The notes under the pieces: model-generated
Told to the model about the DNA's origin: nothing
What the model saw: the letters and a program-made list of their open reading frames with translations, nothing else
Database searches by the model: none
NCBI GenBank assembly: GCA_022826965.1
Contig: JAJDTU010000002.1
Coordinates: 1 to 64,000 of the forward strand
Source: Dehalococcoidia bacterium
GTDB lineage: Bacteria; Chloroflexota; Dehalococcoidia; Bin125
Length of the DNA stretch: 64,000 bases
Reading direction: 5' to 3'
Part shown: positions 11,333 through 59,936 of the stretch, in pieces
How the letters are laid out: each line of letters begins with the position of its first letter
How positions within the stretch are numbered: the stretch's first letter is position 1
Made by a program: the position numbers and the translations under genes

Positions 11333-11387
11333 TGGAGTCCTCACGCTTGCCTCCGCATCGAGTGCGGGTCGGGGACCCTCACCCTAA

Positions 11388-11420
11388 CCCTCTCCCAGAG
11401 GGAGAGGGGACCAGAGGGAG
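11388..11420. repeat. Palindromic CTCTCCC/GGGAGAG repeat with direct duplication
   Basis: CCCTCTCCC and GGGAGAGGG form a nine-pair stem around AGA at 11388-11408. The right arm AGAGGGAGAGGGGAC is then repeated once directly. This is the widespread CCCTAACCCTCTCCC-type intergenic repeat. It sits just after the ABC ATPase stop and could also end its transcript. Confidence 0.6.
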
Positions 11421-11426
11421 AGGGGA

Positions 11427-12257
11427 CTAGAGGATTTGGCTGAGGAACAGCTTCGTCCGTTCCTCGCGCGGGTTGGTGAAGAAGTGCTCGGGTGTGCCCT
11501 GCTCGACCAGCGCCCCCTCGTCGAAGAAGACCAGCCGGTCCGCGACCTCGCGGGCGAAGCCCATCTCGTGGGTCACCACGATCATCGTCATGCCCGACTC
11601 GGCCAGCTCCTGCATTACGTCGAGTACCTCCTTGATCATCTCGGGGTCGAGTGCGGAGGTCGGCTCGTCGAAGAGCATGATCTTTGGCTGCATGGCCAGC
11701 GCGCGCGCGATTGCGACGCGCTGCTGCAGTCCACCGGAGAGTTGCGAGGGGAACTTGTCGGCCTGCTCGGGGATACCGACGCGCTCAAGCAGTTGCATGG
11801 CCAGCGCTTCGGCCTCGAGCTTCGGCATGTGCCGCACCTTCTGCGGGCCCAGCGTGATGTTGCTCAATACCGTGAGGTGCGGGAACAAGTTGAACTGCTG
11901 GAAGACCATCCCGACTTCTGAGCGAATCGCGGCCATCGCGCGGACGTCCTCGTTCATCTCGATGCCGTCGATCACGATGCGTCCGGCGTCGTGCTCCTCC
12001 AACCGGTTCAGGCAGCGGATGTAGGTCGACTTGCCCGAACCTGATGGTCCGAGGATGACGACGATCTCATGCTCCTTGATTCGCAGCGAGACATCGTCCA
12101 GCGCCTGGAAATCTCCGAACCACTTGTCGACGTGCTCGGTGATTATGATGTCGGATTGACCTCTGAGGCGCTCGGGTCCTTCGAACTCTTCGGTAGCTGG
12201 GCCGGCCGCGGGTTTGGGAGGTGCGGGCTGCGCGATTGCGAGGTCTTCGGTGGTCAT
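11427..12257 (-). CDS. Polar amino-acid ABC transporter ATP-binding protein (GlnQ/AapP-like)
   Basis: A 276-residue ATPase that powers an amino-acid importer. It shows Walker [11 protein letters not shown]-loop [13 protein letters not shown], signature [16 protein letters not shown], Walker [13 protein letters not shown] and the switch His in VTHEMGF. The FNLFPHLT Q-loop is typical of the PAAT (polar amino acid) family. A Pro/Ala-rich tail of about 40 residues precedes the domain, longer than usual. AGGAG lies seven bases before ATG 12257. The partner permeases are upstream on the same strand but separated by the oppositely oriented hicAB genes, and a GATACT box at 12296-12301 suggests its own promoter. 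Confidence 0.92.
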
Positions 12258-18211: not shown

Positions 18212-18298
18212 CTGCCGCGGAGCGGCAGAAGGAGGTCGCAGGCAGCGGAGGAACCCCCTCTGTCGCTTCGCGACATCTCCCCCTTCGGAAGGGGGAGA
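18212..18298. repeat. Composite palindromic repeat (three hairpins)
   Basis: Three perfect hairpins lie in a row: CTGCCGC/GCGGCAG (18212-18228), TGTCGC/GCGACA around TTC (18261-18275) and TCTCCCCCTT/AAGGGGGAGA around CGG (18276-18298). This layout is the widespread CCCCTCTGTCGC-type intergenic repeat. It fills most of the longest non-coding gap (18095-18320) and may end the small orphan gene's transcript. Confidence 0.65.
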
Positions 18299-18320
18299 AA
18301 TTCTGACCGAAGCCAGAATC

Positions 18321-24606: not shown

Positions 24607-25845
24607 ATGCTCTGTCCCTACCGCGTCATCGACCTGACTGACGAGCGGGGCGTCCTCGCCGGACAGATGCTCGCCGACCTCGGCGCCGACGTGATCCAGG
24701 TCGAGCCTCCGAACGGATCAACAGGTCGCGCCGTCGCGCCGTTCTTCGCCGATCATCCCGACGAATCGATCTACTGGGCGGCGTACACACGAGGCAAACG
24801 CGGCATCACCTGCGATCTTGAAGAATCGCGCGGACGAGACTTGCTGCTTCGGCTCCTGGAAACGGCGGACTTCCTGTTCGAGTCGTCCGATGTCGGCGCA
24901 ATGGCCGAGGTGGGGCTGGACTACCAGACCCTGCACGACCGGTTTCCGCAACTGATCTACGCATCGATCAGCGCCTTCGGCCAGACCGGGCCGAAAGCGC
25001 ATTACGTCGGCTCCGATCTCGCAATCTGGGCCGCCGGCACCCCGTTGCTGATGAGCGGCGACGACGATCGCGCTCCGGTGCGGATCTCTCAGCCTCAAGC
25101 CTGGGGGCACGCTTCTGGAGATGCGGCCGGCGGTTCGATGCTGGCGCTGCACGCTCGACATCAAACCGGCTGTGGACAGCATGTCGACATTTCGGCACAG
25201 GTGTCGGCCGCCCAGGCGACGCTGGCCCAGGTGCTGGCCCATCAACTCGGGGCGGTCGACCCGGAACGCTACGGCGGAGGCGTCAAGATCCGCGGCCAGG
25301 CAATTCGCGGCACGGCCGATGTGGCCGACGGCTACATTGTGCTCCTCATGGGGCCCGGACCGGCGGTCGGACACTTCGCCAACCACGCTGTGAAGTGGCT
25401 GGTCGACATCGGCGCCGCTGAAGCCGAGTTGCTCGACGAGAACTTCGTCACCTACGCCGACCGCGTCGCAACCGGCCAGGCGGACCCGGCGCTCTTCCCG
25501 CGCATGCAGGACATCATGCGCGAGGCCGTCGCCAAGCGGACGAAGCAGGAGATGCTCGACATCTCGATCGAGTACGACCTGTTGCTGGCGCCGGTGCTCG
25601 ACATCGTCGACCTCGGCAACAGCCCCCAACTCGCTCATCGAGGCTTCTGGCAGGAAATCGAGCACGCCGATGGCCGCCGCGTCGTCTATCCCGGACCGCC
25701 GCTGAACATCCTCGTCGATGGGCAATCCCAGGGCATCTGTCGACGTCCGCCGCCCGACCTCGGGCAGCACAACGCTGAGATCTACGGCGAACTGGGACTC
25801 AGCGCCGACGAGATCGATGCTCTGCGTGCGGAGGAAGCGATATGA
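24607..25845 (+). CDS. CaiB/BaiF CoA-transferase family protein, lacking the catalytic Asp
   Basis: A 412-residue class III CoA-transferase fold: Rossmann start VIDLTDERGVLAGQMLADLGAD, VEPPNGS, then GQHVDISAQ. In an ungapped match to formyl-CoA transferase, the residue at the place of the catalytic Asp169 is Trp166 (QPQAWGHASGD); an Asp occurs six residues later. The protein may therefore be a non-catalytic or altered subunit. Its stop overlaps the start of a second CaiB gene (ATGA), which does keep the Asp. The two may form an interlocked heterodimer that moves CoA between organic acids. Family sure, subunit idea inferred. Confidence 0.88.
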   Translation: MLCPYRVIDLTDERGVLAGQMLADLGADVIQVEPPNGSTGRAVAPFFADHPDESIYWAAYTRGKRGITCDLEESRGRDLLLRLLETADFLFESSDVGAMAEVGLDYQTLHDRFPQLIYASISAFGQTGPKAHYVGSDLAIWAAGTPLLMSGDDDRAPVRISQPQAWGHASGDAAGGSMLALHARHQTGCGQHVDISAQVSAAQATLAQVLAHQLGAVDPERYGGGVKIRGQAIRGTADVADGYIVLLMGPGPAVGHFANHAVKWLVDIGAAEAELLDENFVTYADRVATGQADPALFPRMQDIMREAVAKRTKQEMLDISIEYDLLLAPVLDIVDLGNSPQLAHRGFWQEIEHADGRRVVYPGPPLNILVDGQSQGICRRPPPDLGQHNAEIYGELGLSADEIDALRAEEAI

Positions 25846-27062
25846 CGCTGCCCCAGGGCACGGGCCCATTAGCCGGGGTGAAGATTCTCGACCTGAGTTG
25901 GATCGTCGCCGGTCCGACCGTCGGTCGGGCGATGGCCGACTACGGCGCGACCGTAATCCGCGTCGAGTCGCCGACCCGGGTAGATACGGCCCGCGTGGTC
26001 GGTCCGTTCCACCGCGACGAACCGGGCGTAGAGAACTCCGGTTTGTACGGCAACGTCAATGCAGGTAAGTGGGGTCTCACTCTTGACCTGCGTGTTTCGG
26101 GAGGGCAGGACATCTTCCGACGACTGGCCGTCTGGTCCGACATCGTCTGTGAATCGTTCACAGCCGGGGTGCTCGCTCGCTGGCAGCTCGACTATCAGCA
26201 CCTGCGCGAACTCAAACCCGACCTGATCATGCTGAGCAGCACGCTGCTCGGGCAGAACGGTCCCTACAACCAGGTCAGCGGATTCGGCAGCCAGGGCGCC
26301 GGCATGGCCGGGATCCAGGATCTGGCGGGCTGGCCCGACCGCGCGCCGGCCGGTCCCTTCGGTCCCTACACCGACTACCCGGCCCCGCGCTTCGCCCTCA
26401 CCGCTCTCCTCGCGGCGCTGGACCATCGCAACCGCACCGGGGAGGGTGTCTTCATCGACCAGGCGCAGGCTGAGGGCAGCATGCAACTGCTCGCTCCCGC
26501 GTTGATCGATTACAAGAACGGCGGACCGGCGCTGCAGCGTCGCGGCAACGATGATCCGCAGATGTGCCCGCACGGCGTGTATCCCTGTCTCGTGCCCGAT
26601 GGGCGCGACGAGTCATGGGTCGCAATCGCCGTCGCGACGGACGAGCAGTGGCGCACCCTGGCCGAACTCCTCGCGGCCGACGGTTCGATGTCATTCGACC
26701 AACGGCGGCAGGCACAATCCGAGATTGATGCGGCGCTGAGCCAGTGGACATCGAGCCGCTCGGCAGCCGAGGTCGAAGACAGCCTGCAGAGCGCCGGCAT
26801 CTCTGCCCATCGGCTCGCGACCACCGAGGACGCCGCCAACGACCCGCAGCTCGTGCACCGCAACCACTTCCTCCGCCTGGCCCATTCGCTACACGGCGAG
26901 ACCGTCGTCGAGGGCCCGCGCTACATCCTCTCCGACACTCCCGCCGAGCCCGCCCGTCCCGCGCCGCAGTACGGCGAACACAACGAACTCATCCTGCAGG
27001 AAGTGCTCGGCCTCAGTGAACGCGAGATCGGAGAACTCGCTGCCTCCGGCGCCTTGAGCTAG
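25842..27062 (+). CDS. CaiB/BaiF CoA-transferase, catalytic type
   Basis: A 406-residue class III CoA-transferase. It begins AGVKILDLSWIVAGPTVGRAMADYGATVIRVE (conserved Rossmann start, GATVIRVE) and has the substrate-side segment LSSTLLGQNGPY. Asp178 in GPYTDYPAPRF aligns without gaps to Asp169 of formyl-CoA transferase, 22 residues before the RTG turn, so it should form the aspartyl-CoA intermediate. It is translated by a four-base overlap with the Asp-lacking partner. It probably activates a carboxylic acid with CoA from a donor thioester. It overlaps the convergent GMC gene by four bases. Confidence 0.9.
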   Translation: MTLPQGTGPLAGVKILDLSWIVAGPTVGRAMADYGATVIRVESPTRVDTARVVGPFHRDEPGVENSGLYGNVNAGKWGLTLDLRVSGGQDIFRRLAVWSDIVCESFTAGVLARWQLDYQHLRELKPDLIMLSSTLLGQNGPYNQVSGFGSQGAGMAGIQDLAGWPDRAPAGPFGPYTDYPAPRFALTALLAALDHRNRTGEGVFIDQAQAEGSMQLLAPALIDYKNGGPALQRRGNDDPQMCPHGVYPCLVPDGRDESWVAIAVATDEQWRTLAELLAADGSMSFDQRRQAQSEIDAALSQWTSSRSAAEVEDSLQSAGISAHRLATTEDAANDPQLVHRNHFLRLAHSLHGETVVEGPRYILSDTPAEPARPAPQYGEHNELILQEVLGLSEREIGELAASGALS

Positions 27063-35621: not shown

Positions 35622-38186
35622 ATGCCCACTGGACAACCACTCGACGGCGCCGTCGTCCTTGACCTCTCCGACGAGCCCATGATCAGCGCCGGGCGCTACC
35701 TGGCCGACCTCGGAGCCCGCGTGGTCCGGGTGGAGTCGGCACATGGCGATCGGATTCGCCGCGTTGGACCCTGGGTGGACGGCGAGCCGGGCAACGAACG
35801 CTCGCTGCGTCACCTGCTCTATAACCAGGGCAAGCAGTCGCTGGCGATCGATCCGGACGCGGAAGATTCCTGGGACATCATCGAGCAGCTCGCCGCCCGG
35901 GCCGATGTGGTGATTGCGCCACTGGACAAATCTCGGCGCGCGTCTCGCTTCTTCGCCCGTTTGCACGAGTCGGCGCAGCAAGGCAACGGACCGTCGGTCG
36001 TTGACGTCGTCTTCCGGCGCAACGATCCGTCGGAGCAAGTGACGGATCTGATTGCGATGGCTGCCGGGAGCCAACTCGTCTGCAACGGCTTCCCCGATAT
36101 CGCGCCGGACTATCCGGCCGGCAAGCTGGGCTACAAGCAGTCATCCAACCTCGCGGTCGCGGCGGCGGTCGCGACGATCTTCCAGCACGCGCGGGGCGGC
36201 CCCGCGGTTTCATCAACGATCTCACTGCAGGAGGCGGTGATCTCAACGATCATCCAGGCCGCGAACCCAAACCTCTACAACTGGCACGGCATGGTCGCCG
36301 AGCGCACGGGAACCGGCGGACTGCGCTACCCGATTGTCGGTCGCGGTCCGGGATCGTTCGAGGAGGGCGAGTTCGAGGACGGACAGATCGTCTTCATCGA
36401 CACGCCGGGCGTGACTTACCAGACCGCCGATGGCCTCTGGGTGACCTACCTGCAGTCGCCGACGAACTTGAGCTGGAAGGCCTTCCCCGAGTGGTACGCC
36501 GAGGTGACGGGCGACGACACACTGCTCAAGGATCCCTGGCCGGAGCCGTCCTATCGAATCACCCACATGGAGGAGATGCAGGAACACGTCAAGCGCTTCT
36601 GCGCGGCGCAAGCGCGCGACGCCCTGATCGAGCGTGGACAGCGAAACTCCGACCTGGCGCTACCGGTCCAGACCGGACTGGACATCGCCGCCGACGAGCA
36701 CCTGCACGAGCGCGGCTTCTTCCCGCAGGTCGAGCATCCCGTACTTGGCCGCACGTTACCGCTGCCGCGAACGTCCTACCGATCGACGGGCCTCGATGTC
36801 ACCCCCTGCCCGGCCCCCGGACTTGGCGAGCACTCCGCCGATGTCTTGCGAGAACTCGCCGGCTGCTCCGACGCTGAGATTCGCTCGCTGATCGACCTCG
36901 GCATCGTGAAGGGCTCTCGACCGGCGGAGGATGGACCGCAGGAGGACCCTGTTCGCTCGCCGATCCAGATTGAACAACGACGTCCGACTCGACTGCCGCT
37001 CGATGGCGTGCGCGTGCTCGACTTCTGCTGGATGGCAGCCGGGCCGCTGATCACCGAGATGCTGGCCAACATGGGCGCCGACGTGATTAAGATCGAGTCG
37101 GCGTCGGGCATCGACACGGTGCGCGAGTTCTCGCACCCGCCCAAGGGCTTCACGATCGACACGGGCGCCTTTTTCAACGACACCAACACGGACAAGCGTT
37201 CGCTGACGCTCAATCTGCATCACCCGAAGACGAAAGAACTCATCCTTGAGATGCTGCCGCATTTCGACCTGGTCACGAACAACTTCGCCCCGGGCGCGAT
37301 GGAGAAGTTCCATCTGACCTACGACGAGCTGCGCGAGCACAAACCAGACTTGATCTACGCATCATTCCCGGTCATGGGCACGTTTGGGCCAAAGAAGTCA
37401 TATCGCGGGATCGGCAATGGCGTGACGGCGCTCTCGGGCGTTGCCGGGCACACGGGACAGCCCGATCGCGCCCCAATCGGCATCGGCACGCTGCACACCG
37501 ACTTCACGCTGGCGCCGATCGCATCGTCGCTCCTGATCTCGGCGCTGATTCATCGCGAACGAACCGGTGAAGGTCAACAGATAGAGATCGCGCAATACGA
37601 GGCAGCCGTCCACCTGCTCGACCACGAGTTGATGGACGCCTTGATCAACGGTGTCGACACGCCCAGGATCGGCAATCGCTCCACTGAGTACTGTCCCCAC
37701 GGGCTGTTCCCGGCATCGGGCGACGACTCATGGCTCGCCGTCGCCGTCCGCGACCGACATGAGTGGCGAGAGCTCTGCGACGTAATCGGGCGCCGTGACC
37801 TCGCGAAGCGGGAGGACCTGCTCACGCTCGAGGGCCGCAAGGCGGCCGAGGACGAGCTCGAAGCGGCGCTCTCCGCGTGGTCGGCGCAACATGACGCCTG
37901 GGAAGCGTCCGCGATGTTGCAGAGCCGAGGCATTCCGGCATCGCCGGCTGAGACCGCGGCCGACCTGGCCGTCCACGACAAGGGCGCCGACGACCTGTTC
38001 TTCCGCTACGACCGTGGCGAGGTGCCCTTCATTACCCAGCACCAGCCGTTCACCTGGAACGGCGAGCGTCTGGGCACGCGGCCGTCGCCCGGCCTCGGCG
38101 AGCACTCCGAAGCGATCCTCAAGGGAGAGTTCGGCGTCGATGACGAGCGGTACGTCGAGCTACTGATCGAGCAAGTGATCTACTGA
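35622..38186 (+). CDS. Fused double CaiB/BaiF CoA-transferase
   Basis: An 854-residue protein with two complete CaiB/BaiF modules (about 1-430 and 455-854) joined by a Pro/Glu-rich linker. Each half begins with the Rossmann start (DGAVVLDLSDEPM and DGVRVLDFCWMAAGP). In the second half Asp627 (TLHTDFTL) lies 22 residues before RTG, as in formyl-CoA transferase. In the first half the corresponding place is Tyr171 (GYKQSSN), with no Asp nearby. The chain therefore looks like a fused dimer with one working active site. GGGAGG lies before the ATG. It follows the cyclase-family gene. Confidence 0.88.
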   Translation: MPTGQPLDGAVVLDLSDEPMISAGRYLADLGARVVRVESAHGDRIRRVGPWVDGEPGNERSLRHLLYNQGKQSLAIDPDAEDSWDIIEQLAARADVVIAPLDKSRRASRFFARLHESAQQGNGPSVVDVVFRRNDPSEQVTDLIAMAAGSQLVCNGFPDIAPDYPAGKLGYKQSSNLAVAAAVATIFQHARGGPAVSSTISLQEAVISTIIQAANPNLYNWHGMVAERTGTGGLRYPIVGRGPGSFEEGEFEDGQIVFIDTPGVTYQTADGLWVTYLQSPTNLSWKAFPEWYAEVTGDDTLLKDPWPEPSYRITHMEEMQEHVKRFCAAQARDALIERGQRNSDLALPVQTGLDIAADEHLHERGFFPQVEHPVLGRTLPLPRTSYRSTGLDVTPCPAPGLGEHSADVLRELAGCSDAEIRSLIDLGIVKGSRPAEDGPQEDPVRSPIQIEQRRPTRLPLDGVRVLDFCWMAAGPLITEMLANMGADVIKIESASGIDTVREFSHPPKGFTIDTGAFFNDTNTDKRSLTLNLHHPKTKELILEMLPHFDLVTNNFAPGAMEKFHLTYDELREHKPDLIYASFPVMGTFGPKKSYRGIGNGVTALSGVAGHTGQPDRAPIGIGTLHTDFTLAPIASSLLISALIHRERTGEGQQIEIAQYEAAVHLLDHELMDALINGVDTPRIGNRSTEYCPHGLFPASGDDSWLAVAVRDRHEWRELCDVIGRRDLAKREDLLTLEGRKAAEDELEAALSAWSAQHDAWEASAMLQSRGIPASPAETAADLAVHDKGADDLFFRYDRGEVPFITQHQPFTWNGERLGTRPSPGLGEHSEAILKGEFGVDDERYVELLIEQVIY

Positions 38187-57172: not shown

Positions 57173-57514
57173 ATGGCGAACTTCAAGAATCGGCTGCACG
57201 AACAGCTGGCCAGGCGCACGGCACGGAACGCCTTCCGCGAAGCGGATCCCGATGCAGACGAGGTCACGGTCTGGTGCGACGTCACGAACCTCTCGTTCAA
57301 GTCGGCCGACGAAGGCGACCTGCGCTCGCAACTCGAGGCGCACTACAAGTCGGCCGAGTACCGCCGCGCCACGAACATCACCATTGAGAAACAGCGCGCG
57401 CTCCGCGACCAGCGCTGGCCGGTGTTGTTCAGCAGGCGTCTACCCTGCCCGCTAGATGGGAACGGGCGATATGACAACGGCGCTCGACGGACTCAGGGTC
57501 CTCGACATATCTGA
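57173..57514 (+). CDS. Hypothetical protein, 113 residues
   Basis: A basic, Arg-rich small protein with a likely helical N-terminus (FKNRLHEQLARRTARNAFRE) and a beta-prone middle (DEVTVWCDVTNLSF). Third-position GC is high, as in real genes here, at least to about 57450. GAGGGGG stands before the ATG. The last 59 bases overlap the start of the fused CaiB gene in another frame, so its true end or the CaiB start may need revision. No family recognised. Confidence 0.5.
   Translation: MANFKNRLHEQLARRTARNAFREADPDADEVTVWCDVTNLSFKSADEGDLRSQLEAHYKSAEYRRATNITIEKQRALRDQRWPVLFSRRLPCPLDGNGRYDNGARRTQGPRHI
57441..57446 (+). promoter_or_regulatory. Putative -10 box TACCCT before fused CaiB
   Basis: TACCCT ends nine bases before the ATG at 57456, which would put transcription start at or just before it. 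It is the third occurrence of this hexamer close to a start codon here. Confidence 0.33.
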
Positions 57515-59936
57515 AGGCCTGGCCGCACCCTTTGCGGCCAAGCTGCTCGGTGATCTCGGCGCGGACGTGATCAAACTGGAGCCGCCCGAGGGCGACGCCG
57601 CCCGACGACGCGGCCCCTTCGCCGGCTCTGAGGACATCGAGGCCTCCGCGCCATTCCTCTACGCCAACACGTCGAAGCGCAGCGTGATTGTCGACCCCGC
57701 CGACCCCGACGATTTGGCGCTTCGGGCGCGACTGCTCGATTGGGCCGACGTGGTGATCTCACACGAGACCGAGCCGTCGCTGGCGGCGCGCGGACTCGGA
57801 TACCGGCAGCTCTCCGCGCGGAGGCCCGAAGTCATCCTCACGACCGTGACCGGCTTCGGCTCCGACGGCCCGTACGCCGACTGGCAGTGGAACCATCTCA
57901 CAGCCGGCGCGCTGGGCGGATTCACGTATCTCTGCGGTCGCGAGGATCGCGAGCCGCTGCAGCTCGGAGCTTCCGTCACCGAGACGCTGACCGGCGCCTA
58001 TGCCGCCGTCGCCACCCTGATCGCCGTCTACGCGGCACAGGAACACGGTCGCGGCGACCACGTTGACGTCTCAGTGATCGAAACCGCTGTGAATGCGGCT
58101 CTGCTGCCCGTCCAGCGTTATGACTACACCGGCAGCAGCGGCGCGCGGCGCGCCGACATCGGCCCGTCGCCATCGTTCATCCTGCCCACCTCCGATGGCT
58201 ATGTGGGCGCCAATGTGCTGACCCAGGCCCAGTGGGAGATGCTCTGCCAGTTTTTCGGCAAGCCGGAGTTCATCGAGGATCCGCTATTCGCCGACGGTTG
58301 GTCGCGGATGGAGAACTCTCGAGACCTGGCGACGCAGCTCGCAGAACAGACTCGACCGCGCACCGCCGACGATGTCTTCCACGACGCTCAAACCTGGCGC
58401 ATCCCCTTCGGTCTGATCCCAACCATGGCTGACGTCTTGAACCTGCTGCCCCATCGGGAGCGCGAGTTCTTCTTTAGCTTCGACCATCCACGCGCCGGTC
58501 GAGTGCGCATGCCCGGCATCCCCTGGATGTTCGGCGACGAGCGGCCTCTCGGGTCGCGAACGCCGTTACTCGGCGAGCACACCGACGACATCGCCGCCGC
58601 TTCCCTCTCCCCGCGCTCCGCGGAAGGAGACGCCGATCCTCTCCCCCTCTCCCCCCGCGCGGGGGGGGGAGTTGCGGACGGCTGTGGGGGGCTCCCCTCC
58701 CGACCCCTCGAGGGCCTTCGAGTCATCGACCTCTCGATGTTTATGTCGGGCCCGATGACCTCGCTCATCTTTGCCGACGGCGGCGCCGACGTAATCAAGG
58801 TCGAGTCGGTGCAGCGGATCGACGGCTGGCGGGCCGGCGGCGCGACCGACGACTTCTGGTGGGAGTGGGCGCCGCAGTTCAACTGGGTCAACCGAAACAA
58901 GCATGGGATCACGCTGAACCTGACCGACCAGCGCGGTTCCGACGTGATTCGGCACATGGTCCGTGAGGCCGACATCCTGGTCGAGAACTACACGCCTCGT
59001 GTGATGGGCAACTTCGGCCTCTCCTACGAGGAACTGCACGAGATCAATCCCGAACTGATCATGATCTCAATGCCCGGTTTCGGACTGACCGGGACGTGGT
59101 CGCACTACACCGCGTTCGCCAACACGACCGAGCAGATGTCGGGCCTGCCCCACCTGACCGGCTACGCCGACGACCAACCGATCTTTAGCGGCACGACCGG
59201 CGGCGATCCCCTGGCTGGAGTCATGGGCGCACTGGCGCTGCTCTCGGCGCTGGAGCGTCGGCGTCGGTTGAACGCGCAGGGCAAACCGGGCGGCTGTCAC
59301 ATCGACCTGTCGCAGACGGAGACCGCGACATCGTTCACGGGCGAGGCGGTCACGGCCTATTCGATCTCGGGAGAGGACCACGGACGGCGCGGCAACGATC
59401 ACCCGCAGATCGCCCCGCACAACACCTACCCGTGCGTGGACGATCACTGGATCGCCATCGCCTGCGAGACCGACGCGCAGTTCGCCGACCTGGCTCGGTT
59501 GGTGGGTCGGGACGACTGGGCCGGGCAGTACCCCTCATTCGCGGATCGGGACGCCGCCCGCGGCGAGATCGATTCGGCGATCGCCGAGTGGACGCGAAAC
59601 CGCGATGCGCGTCAGCTCATGCGCGAGTTGCAAGCCATGCGGATTCCAGCCGGAGCGGTCTACGAGGGCCGCGAACTGCTCGAGGACCAGCACCTGCAGG
59701 CGCGCGGCTTCTTCATCACGCAGCACCACACCTACGCCGGCGCTCGCCGCTATCCACTGCAGCCGTATCGGTTCGCCAACTGGAGCGGGCCCGAGATTGA
59801 TCGGCCGTCGCCGACGCTGGGCCGAGACACGCGCGAGGTGCTCGCCCGTCTGACGACCCTGACCGACGCCGAGGTCGATCAGATGGAAGCCGACAACGTG
59901 ATCGGGACGATTCCGCTCGGCGAGCGCGGCGACTAG
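57456..59936 (+). CDS. Fused double CaiB/BaiF CoA-transferase with repeat-derived linker
   Basis: An 826-residue protein of two CaiB/BaiF modules (about 10-378 and 417-826). The starts are DGLRVLDISEGLAAPFAAKL and EGLRVIDLSMFMSGPMTSL. In the second half Asp584 (TGGDPLAGVMGALAL) matches the catalytic Asp; in the first half the matching residue is Glu176 (SVTETLTG). The linker (about 381-419) is Pro/Ser/Gly-rich and encoded by palindromic C- and G-runs like the intergenic repeats of this window. ATG 57456 is used because of the TACCCT box; ATG 57471 is equally possible. The FAH gene follows after 39 bases. Confidence 0.87.
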   Translation: MGTGDMTTALDGLRVLDISEGLAAPFAAKLLGDLGADVIKLEPPEGDAARRRGPFAGSEDIEASAPFLYANTSKRSVIVDPADPDDLALRARLLDWADVVISHETEPSLAARGLGYRQLSARRPEVILTTVTGFGSDGPYADWQWNHLTAGALGGFTYLCGREDREPLQLGASVTETLTGAYAAVATLIAVYAAQEHGRGDHVDVSVIETAVNAALLPVQRYDYTGSSGARRADIGPSPSFILPTSDGYVGANVLTQAQWEMLCQFFGKPEFIEDPLFADGWSRMENSRDLATQLAEQTRPRTADDVFHDAQTWRIPFGLIPTMADVLNLLPHREREFFFSFDHPRAGRVRMPGIPWMFGDERPLGSRTPLLGEHTDDIAAASLSPRSAEGDADPLPLSPRAGGGVADGCGGLPSRPLEGLRVIDLSMFMSGPMTSLIFADGGADVIKVESVQRIDGWRAGGATDDFWWEWAPQFNWVNRNKHGITLNLTDQRGSDVIRHMVREADILVENYTPRVMGNFGLSYEELHEINPELIMISMPGFGLTGTWSHYTAFANTTEQMSGLPHLTGYADDQPIFSGTTGGDPLAGVMGALALLSALERRRRLNAQGKPGGCHIDLSQTETATSFTGEAVTAYSISGEDHGRRGNDHPQIAPHNTYPCVDDHWIAIACETDAQFADLARLVGRDDWAGQYPSFADRDAARGEIDSAIAEWTRNRDARQLMRELQAMRIPAGAVYEGRELLEDQHLQARGFFITQHHTYAGARRYPLQPYRFANWSGPEIDRPSPTLGRDTREVLARLTTLTDAEVDQMEADNVIGTIPLGERGD
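58600..58666. repeat. Palindromic repeat inside the CaiB fusion linker
   Basis: Nested inverted repeats CTTCC...GGAAG around CCGCG/CGCGG (58600-58626), then CCCCCC-GCGC-GGGGGG (58651-58666) amid CCCCTCTCCCC runs. The composition matches the CTCTCCC/GGGAGAG intergenic repeats at 11388 and 18276, but here it is read in frame as the linker. Confidence 0.5.

Follow-up and report, generated by a model that had tools for sequence, protein, structure and literature searches.

A dispersed 54-nt palindromic element occupies the linker of an older CaiB-CaiB fusion in sponge-associated Dehalococcoidia

Two CaiB-type domains lie in one open reading frame of the window, the 64,000-nt stretch of Dehalococcoidia DNA analysed here (assembly GCA_022826965.1, contig JAJDTU010000002.1), and the linker between them is encoded by a palindromic repeat. 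This arrangement raises the question of whether the repeat created the fusion or entered a linker that already existed. A reading of the DNA made without database searches (the sequence-only reading) had favored creation, proposing that an in-frame repeat joined two formerly separate genes by removing the stop between them. The gene and its two halves are placed as follows.

57456-59936, plus strand: tandem CaiB/CaiB (class III CoA-transferase) gene, an open reading frame with an ATG start encoding 826 aa
57483-58583, plus strand: first CaiB domain (PF02515 coordinates), with the Glu176 codon at 57981-57983
58707-59831, plus strand: second CaiB domain (PF02515 coordinates), with the Asp584 codon at 59205-59207

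The two PF02515 stretches in the protein together score 611 bits (E 7e-184) against a gathering cut-off of 23.3, and they bear out the domain and linker borders drawn in the sequence-only reading. Its placement of Glu176 and Asp584 at the catalytic position of the two halves is likewise correct, and both residues are invariant across all nine aligned orthologs. Asp584 aligns with the Asp of the class III CoA-transferase structures 9fn0_B and 4ed9_A, its counterpart in 4ed9 being the Asp of the D..tG motif, and Glu176 aligns with a Tyr of 9fn0_A, chain A of benzylsuccinate CoA-transferase. Asp584 is the predicted catalytic aspartate, present in the second half only, and the first domain, with Glu176 at the catalytic position, is probably not the acyl-accepting half. 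In sequence, the first half matches chain A of 9fn0 and the second finds its best match in chain B, and enzymes of class III form interlocked dimers in which a catalytic Asp is conserved (PMC9196870). From this we infer that the two halves could act as a pseudo-heterodimer in a single chain, with one site of catalysis and a linker serving as a tether of loose length. This idea rests on sequence because the AlphaFold model of the protein is poor (mean pLDDT 51), too poor for a fold search. The likeness to benzylsuccinate CoA-transferase and other class III enzymes thus lies in the chain A/B match and in a catalytic Asp confined to the second half, whereas the two subunits of that enzyme are one polypeptide here. 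A two-domain fusion of the CoA-transferase class III fold is likewise seen in the DMSP enzyme DddD. None of the curated NCBIfam cut-offs for succinate-glutarate, succinyl-CoA:mesaconate, formyl-CoA and other named CoA-transferases was reached, the best score being 376 bits against a required 750. The named relatives of the protein come from metagenome-assembled genomes of sponge-type Dehalococcoidia and Chloroflexota, a sponge origin that we read from isolate names, and an enrichment of CaiB proteins of unknown function has been noted for sponge Chloroflexi (PMC6306507).

The linker itself contains one and a half units of a repeat.

58603-58636, plus strand: first, partial element unit, a direct repeat of 58645-58678 with the hairpin pattern at three mismatches, read as LSPRSAEGDA
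58643-58696, plus strand: second, complete 54-nt element unit, found by covariance model R1 at 39.5 bits (E 2e-8 in the window), read as PLSPRAGGGVADGCGGLP
Linker peptide of the 826-aa protein: SAEGDADPLPLSPR

The sequence-only reading was right that the linker is repeat-encoded: positions 58603-58696 are a diverged copy of a dispersed 54-nt palindromic element and match about 40 other places in the same genome (G000) at 71-85% identity, with E values down to 6.7e-15. Model R1 was built from 25 other G000 copies with the window copy left out. Within the window the pattern CTCCCCCCGCnnnGCGGGGGGAG is found at two places, each of them in this linker, with zero occurrences expected in shuffles, and the one-and-a-half-unit form recurs at the intergenic copies L002, L003, L005 and L006.

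The consensus of 25 aligned copies is TCCCCTCTCCCCCCGC(nnn)GCGGGGGGAGATGCCGAAGGCAGAGGGGGGCTCCC, in which the outer arms, CCCCT and AGGGG, pair and enclose two hairpins. Of the second hairpin there are several versions (TGCCGAAGGCA, TGTCACGTAGTGACA, TGTCCCGTAGGGACA and others), and its arms co-vary at one pair, from C-G to U-A in four of the 25 copies. An initial repeat alignment misplaced copies with long hairpins, and the model was therefore made from a trimmed set. A genome search of the kind that the sequence-only reading had called for gives at least 148 model matches in the 3.0-Mb G000 genome, merging to at least 136 distinct sites, most of which are not in frame within coding sequence (few are, by a codon-usage test). 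Matches per genome of the genus range from one (G007) to at least 150, with G000, G002, G003 and G010 among the genomes that have many copies and G007 and G001 among those that have few, and the element is abundant in most of the 15 congeners; outside the genus, a model search found 15 of 16 genomes to be free of it. In 33 of 46 copies none of the six frames contains a stop; the share is 27% among base-shuffled copies and 12% among random windows. Rfam 15 gave no match at gathering score in five element-bearing loci, and we found no report of the element or of palindrome-mediated CaiB fusion in the open-licence papers searched.

Two intergenic palindromes, near 18276 and 11388, had been named as relatives of the linker repeat in the sequence-only reading.

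18249-18303, minus strand: intergenic copy of the same element family (R1 32.0 bits, E 2e-6), of the subtype with the TGTCGCGAAGCGACA second hairpin
11371-11431, plus strand: intergenic palindrome of a different family (CCCTCACCCTAACCCTCTCCCAGAGGGAGAGGG), an exact pattern match with zero expected, scoring 14.7 bits with R1

The kinship holds for the first of these and fails for the other. The palindrome at 11371-11431 (CCCTCACCCTAACCCTCTCCC...), which is separate from the 54-nt element (R1 14.7 bits at best), belongs to a second dispersed family of the form CCCTCACCC(T/C)AACCCTCTCCC..GGGAGAGGG, with 31 distinct copies in about 0.4 Mb of examined G000 sequence. A third type, ATTCCCGCG..CGCGGGAAT, is also dispersed.

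Comparison of orthologs dates the fusion. The gene is fused at full length in 12 of the 15 genus genomes, its own included, and is also fused in G017 (71% identity) and G019 (58%) of the same family and in G043 (53%) of the same class. In G002 the ortholog is fused across the linker and then cut by a contig end, and G008 holds only distant matches to the protein. Occupancy of the linker is polymorphic. The 54-nt element is present in the linkers of G000, G004, G003, G010 and G002, the last with three units, and the copies in G002 and G003 are near consensus at 80-83 bits (82.6 bits in G003). By linker alignment, palindromes are absent from the fused orthologs of G012, G006 and G007 in the genus, of G017 and G019 in the family and of G043 in the class. 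Palindromes of the second, CCCTCACCC-type family sit in the linker of G011, G005 and G013; the linker of G009 carries the third type, and that of G014 a CCTTCCCGCG..CGCGGGAAGG palindrome seen in that linker only. On the tree, sister species differ in the family that they carry (G010/G013, G005/G014, and G009 against G000/G004), so occupation took place repeatedly after fusion. The window fusion is older than the repeat, three or four palindrome families have since entered its linker within the genus, and the linker is a tolerant landing site rather than a joint made by the repeat. A search of the compared genomes for a two-gene version, including the one with the repeat between the genes that the sequence-only reading had suggested looking for, found none. 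G001 was considered as a two-gene ortholog and rejected, because each half of the gene runs into a contig end within the linker.

These data bear on two other accounts of the linker. That its C and G runs are low-complexity sequence coding for a Pro/Ser/Gly linker would fit the RNA folding result, in which the linker copy folds no better than its own shuffles (z about 0), but it is refuted by the position-by-position match to a 54-nt consensus that recurs at more than 100 places and by the near-consensus copies in the same linker of the G002 and G003 orthologs. The proposal that this fusion arose when a repeat in frame did away with the stop separating two adjoining CaiB genes has these points in its favor: the repeat exists and sits right at the junction of the domains, the paralog described below shows two genes without a repeat in some genomes and a fused gene with one in others, and an unfused, overlapping CaiB pair is present in the same window.

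24607-25845 and 25842-27062 (24607-27062), plus strand: two separate adjoining CaiB genes with a 4-nt overlap and no element (PF02515 at C13:24622-25773 and 25869-26984)

The palindrome-free fused orthologs, among them those of the distant relatives G017, G019 and G043, nevertheless refute this proposal for the window gene unless their fusions were independent, and the different palindrome families of sister species in the same linker also speak against it; we regard it as very improbable. We favor, with high confidence, the explanation that an old fusion later received in-frame elements of several palindrome families in a tolerant linker. The gene would be an old single-chain tandem of two CaiB-type domains, only the second keeping the catalytic Asp, that works like a fused heterodimeric class III CoA-transferase such as benzylsuccinate CoA-transferase, with the linker merely tethering the halves. 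After fusion, the lineage-specific 54-nt element would have inserted in frame into the linker, and other palindrome families would have taken the same linker independently in sister species. Survival of the insertion may be explained by the absence of stops from all six frames of most copies and by a linker able to accommodate added residues, so that neutrality or tolerance seems the reason for its persistence.

The idea of repeat-mediated fusion finds support at the paralog G000:C11:88384-90762, a sister gene whose fusion is more recent. There, G017, G012, G006 and G007 retain two separate genes, overlapping at their stop and start (TGATG) and lacking the element, and the gene is fused in G000, G014, G005, G009, G010, G003, G008, G011, G001 and G013 and in contig-end fragments of G018 and G004, whose fused state we take from fragments that end near the seam. 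In all 12 fused versions the first gene has lost its stop and about 22 codons, with element-derived sequence in their place; the seam element scores at least 20 bits in 10 of the 12 and 16.9 bits in G004, and the subtype in G013 was recognised by eye. The G004 ortholog has an internal stop near a contig end, which we left out of the evidence. Because the outgroup G017 has two genes, the fusion is derived. What the sequence-only reading had proposed for the window gene thus fits this sister gene, where an insertion together with a deletion would have put one or two elements in place of about 22 codons, the stop and the start of the following gene, which overlapped that stop, so that both genes came to lie in one frame. 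However, the split between basal and crown genomes is the same as for plain colonisation of the window-gene linker, a deletion-type fusion could have come first and the insertion later, and the C11 tree does not tell a single from a multiple origin of the fusion (AU p 0.29 for monophyly of the fused versions). Since these genomes also show colonisation of the window linker, whose gene had fused long before, fusion by deletion followed by insertion explains the pattern nearly as well as joining by the repeat. We therefore consider repeat-mediated fusion at C11 plausible, not proven, and hold it tentatively. A broader form, to which we give slightly less weight still, is that the lineage-specific element acts as a natural gene-fusing linker, whose in-frame insertion between overlapping CaiB genes removed the stop and start to give new single-chain CoA-transferases, at least at C11, and which keeps remodelling linker length in the expanded family. 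As a separate observation, G018, of the same family, carries at G018:C6:14507-15688 (L125/L139) a C11-paralog half that is 86% identical, has the element and lies at a contig end, and it has a 57% version of the other half elsewhere; the former may be a recent transfer or contamination.

The CaiB family is large in this genome, with about 100 PF02515 domain matches in G000 (103 rows, some of which are fragments of one domain), about 18 fused pairs and several adjoining unfused pairs. The element is found in five of the roughly 18 CaiB-CaiB linkers, those of the window gene, C11:88384, C12:97990, C2:111764 and C13:126338; the C11:88384 linker holds two opposed elements. For each of these five linkers, several orthologs have near-consensus copies and others have none. 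The window has a further fusion outside this group.

35622-38186, plus strand: CaiB-CaiB fusion with two PF02515 stretches and no element in its linker (no R1 match to the open reading frame)

Six element sites in CaiB linkers compare with 0.14 expected for uniform insertion over the whole genome and with 1.2-1.7 if insertion is confined to an assumed neutral space of 8-12%. Since five of about 18 exceeds the random-insertion estimate, something beyond bare tolerance may favor CaiB linkers. The fusion at C13:126338 (P5) was considered as split in G011, a candidate rejected when the junction proved to consist of N's and homopolymer junk. Short-read assemblies break or gain N's or junk in element-bearing linkers (L039/L040 in G001, L222 in G011, L140 in G004), and gene calls at such linkers may for this reason be falsely split.

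In-frame copies are not confined to CaiB genes. A census that combined codon usage at all 136 sites with inspection of open reading frames added copies in MurE (C4:514861-516474), MetF (C12:154575-155465) and an HTH protein (C13 near 249562); the codon-usage screen overlooked MurE, which was caught by inspection, so the in-frame count is a minimum. Pfam searches support the MurE and MetF identities. In MurE, a Mur ligase (L043), the element insert PLSPREAGGDAEGRGGLP lies in frame in the middle domain and is present in nine of 15 genus genomes, with a cleanly empty site in the other six. In MetF (MTHFR, L235) the in-frame element follows the RGDLP loop; the insert is longer in G013, and most relatives have an empty site. 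In the HTH protein (L243) a compound palindrome is read in frame in the middle of the protein. The edges of the empty and filled MurE and MetF sites consist of about 10-20 diverged nt, with no clear target duplication.

Palindromic elements in Rickettsia were reportedly described by Ogata et al. in 2000. Rickettsia (19 genes), enterobacteria and Neisseria are known to have palindromic elements in frame within genes (PMC2229807), and the Rickettsia palindromic element (RPE) resembles ours in being a dispersed palindrome that is mostly intergenic and also lies in frame within genes for conserved proteins (PMC2229807). The element described here is likewise dispersed and mainly intergenic, with in-frame copies in MurE, MetF and CaiB linkers that have empty-site orthologs. 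RPE, however, is 105-146 bp long and restricted to Rickettsia, whereas this element is 54 nt, GC-rich, often stop-free in six frames and found in sponge-associated Dehalococcoidia; size and composition set it apart, and we do not file it as RPE. ERIC and Correia/NEMIS-type MITEs are small repeats whose reading frames similarly occur fused to genes (PMC2229807), but for the present element neither a terminal inverted repeat ending in TA nor a target duplication nor a partner transposase was identified. REP elements and BIMEs with RAYT are short, high-copy palindromes, often in opposed pairs (PMC3733652); our element is longer than their 20-40 bp, the GTAG/CGTC end tag of REP is not seen in its consensus UCCCCUCUCCCCCCGCGCAGCGGGGGGAGAUGCCGAAGGCAGAGGGGGGCUCCC, and the Y1 transposase domain PF01797 is absent from G000 and present in one of 15 genus genomes. 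An origin from REP/RAYT was rejected on the lack of PF01797 in G000 and of the tag. We therefore file the element neither as REP, whose transposase and tag features it lacks, nor as a MITE, a target duplication not being evident. In-frame palindromic insertion is thus a known kind of event, and this element a lineage-specific, shorter and GC-rich case from another phylum; what is new is that its copies concentrate in the linkers of a single enzyme family, that one linker has seen turnover among several families of palindrome, and that the seam of a derived fusion is made of the element.

About 15 related genomes display this process through empty and filled sites, changes in copy number, palindrome turnover in one linker and a derived fusion with a repeat-made seam. 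An old notion, that protein linkers can come from small repeats and that such repeats can join genes, thereby becomes directly testable in the CaiB family, which is thought to matter for the degradation of recalcitrant organic matter by sponge-associated Chloroflexota. One more locus belongs beside these: at G000:C8:21766-24374 (L149) two adjoining CaiB genes are unfused with the element between them, and the frame of the downstream gene is open across the whole spacer, an arrangement that is a possible pre-fusion state.
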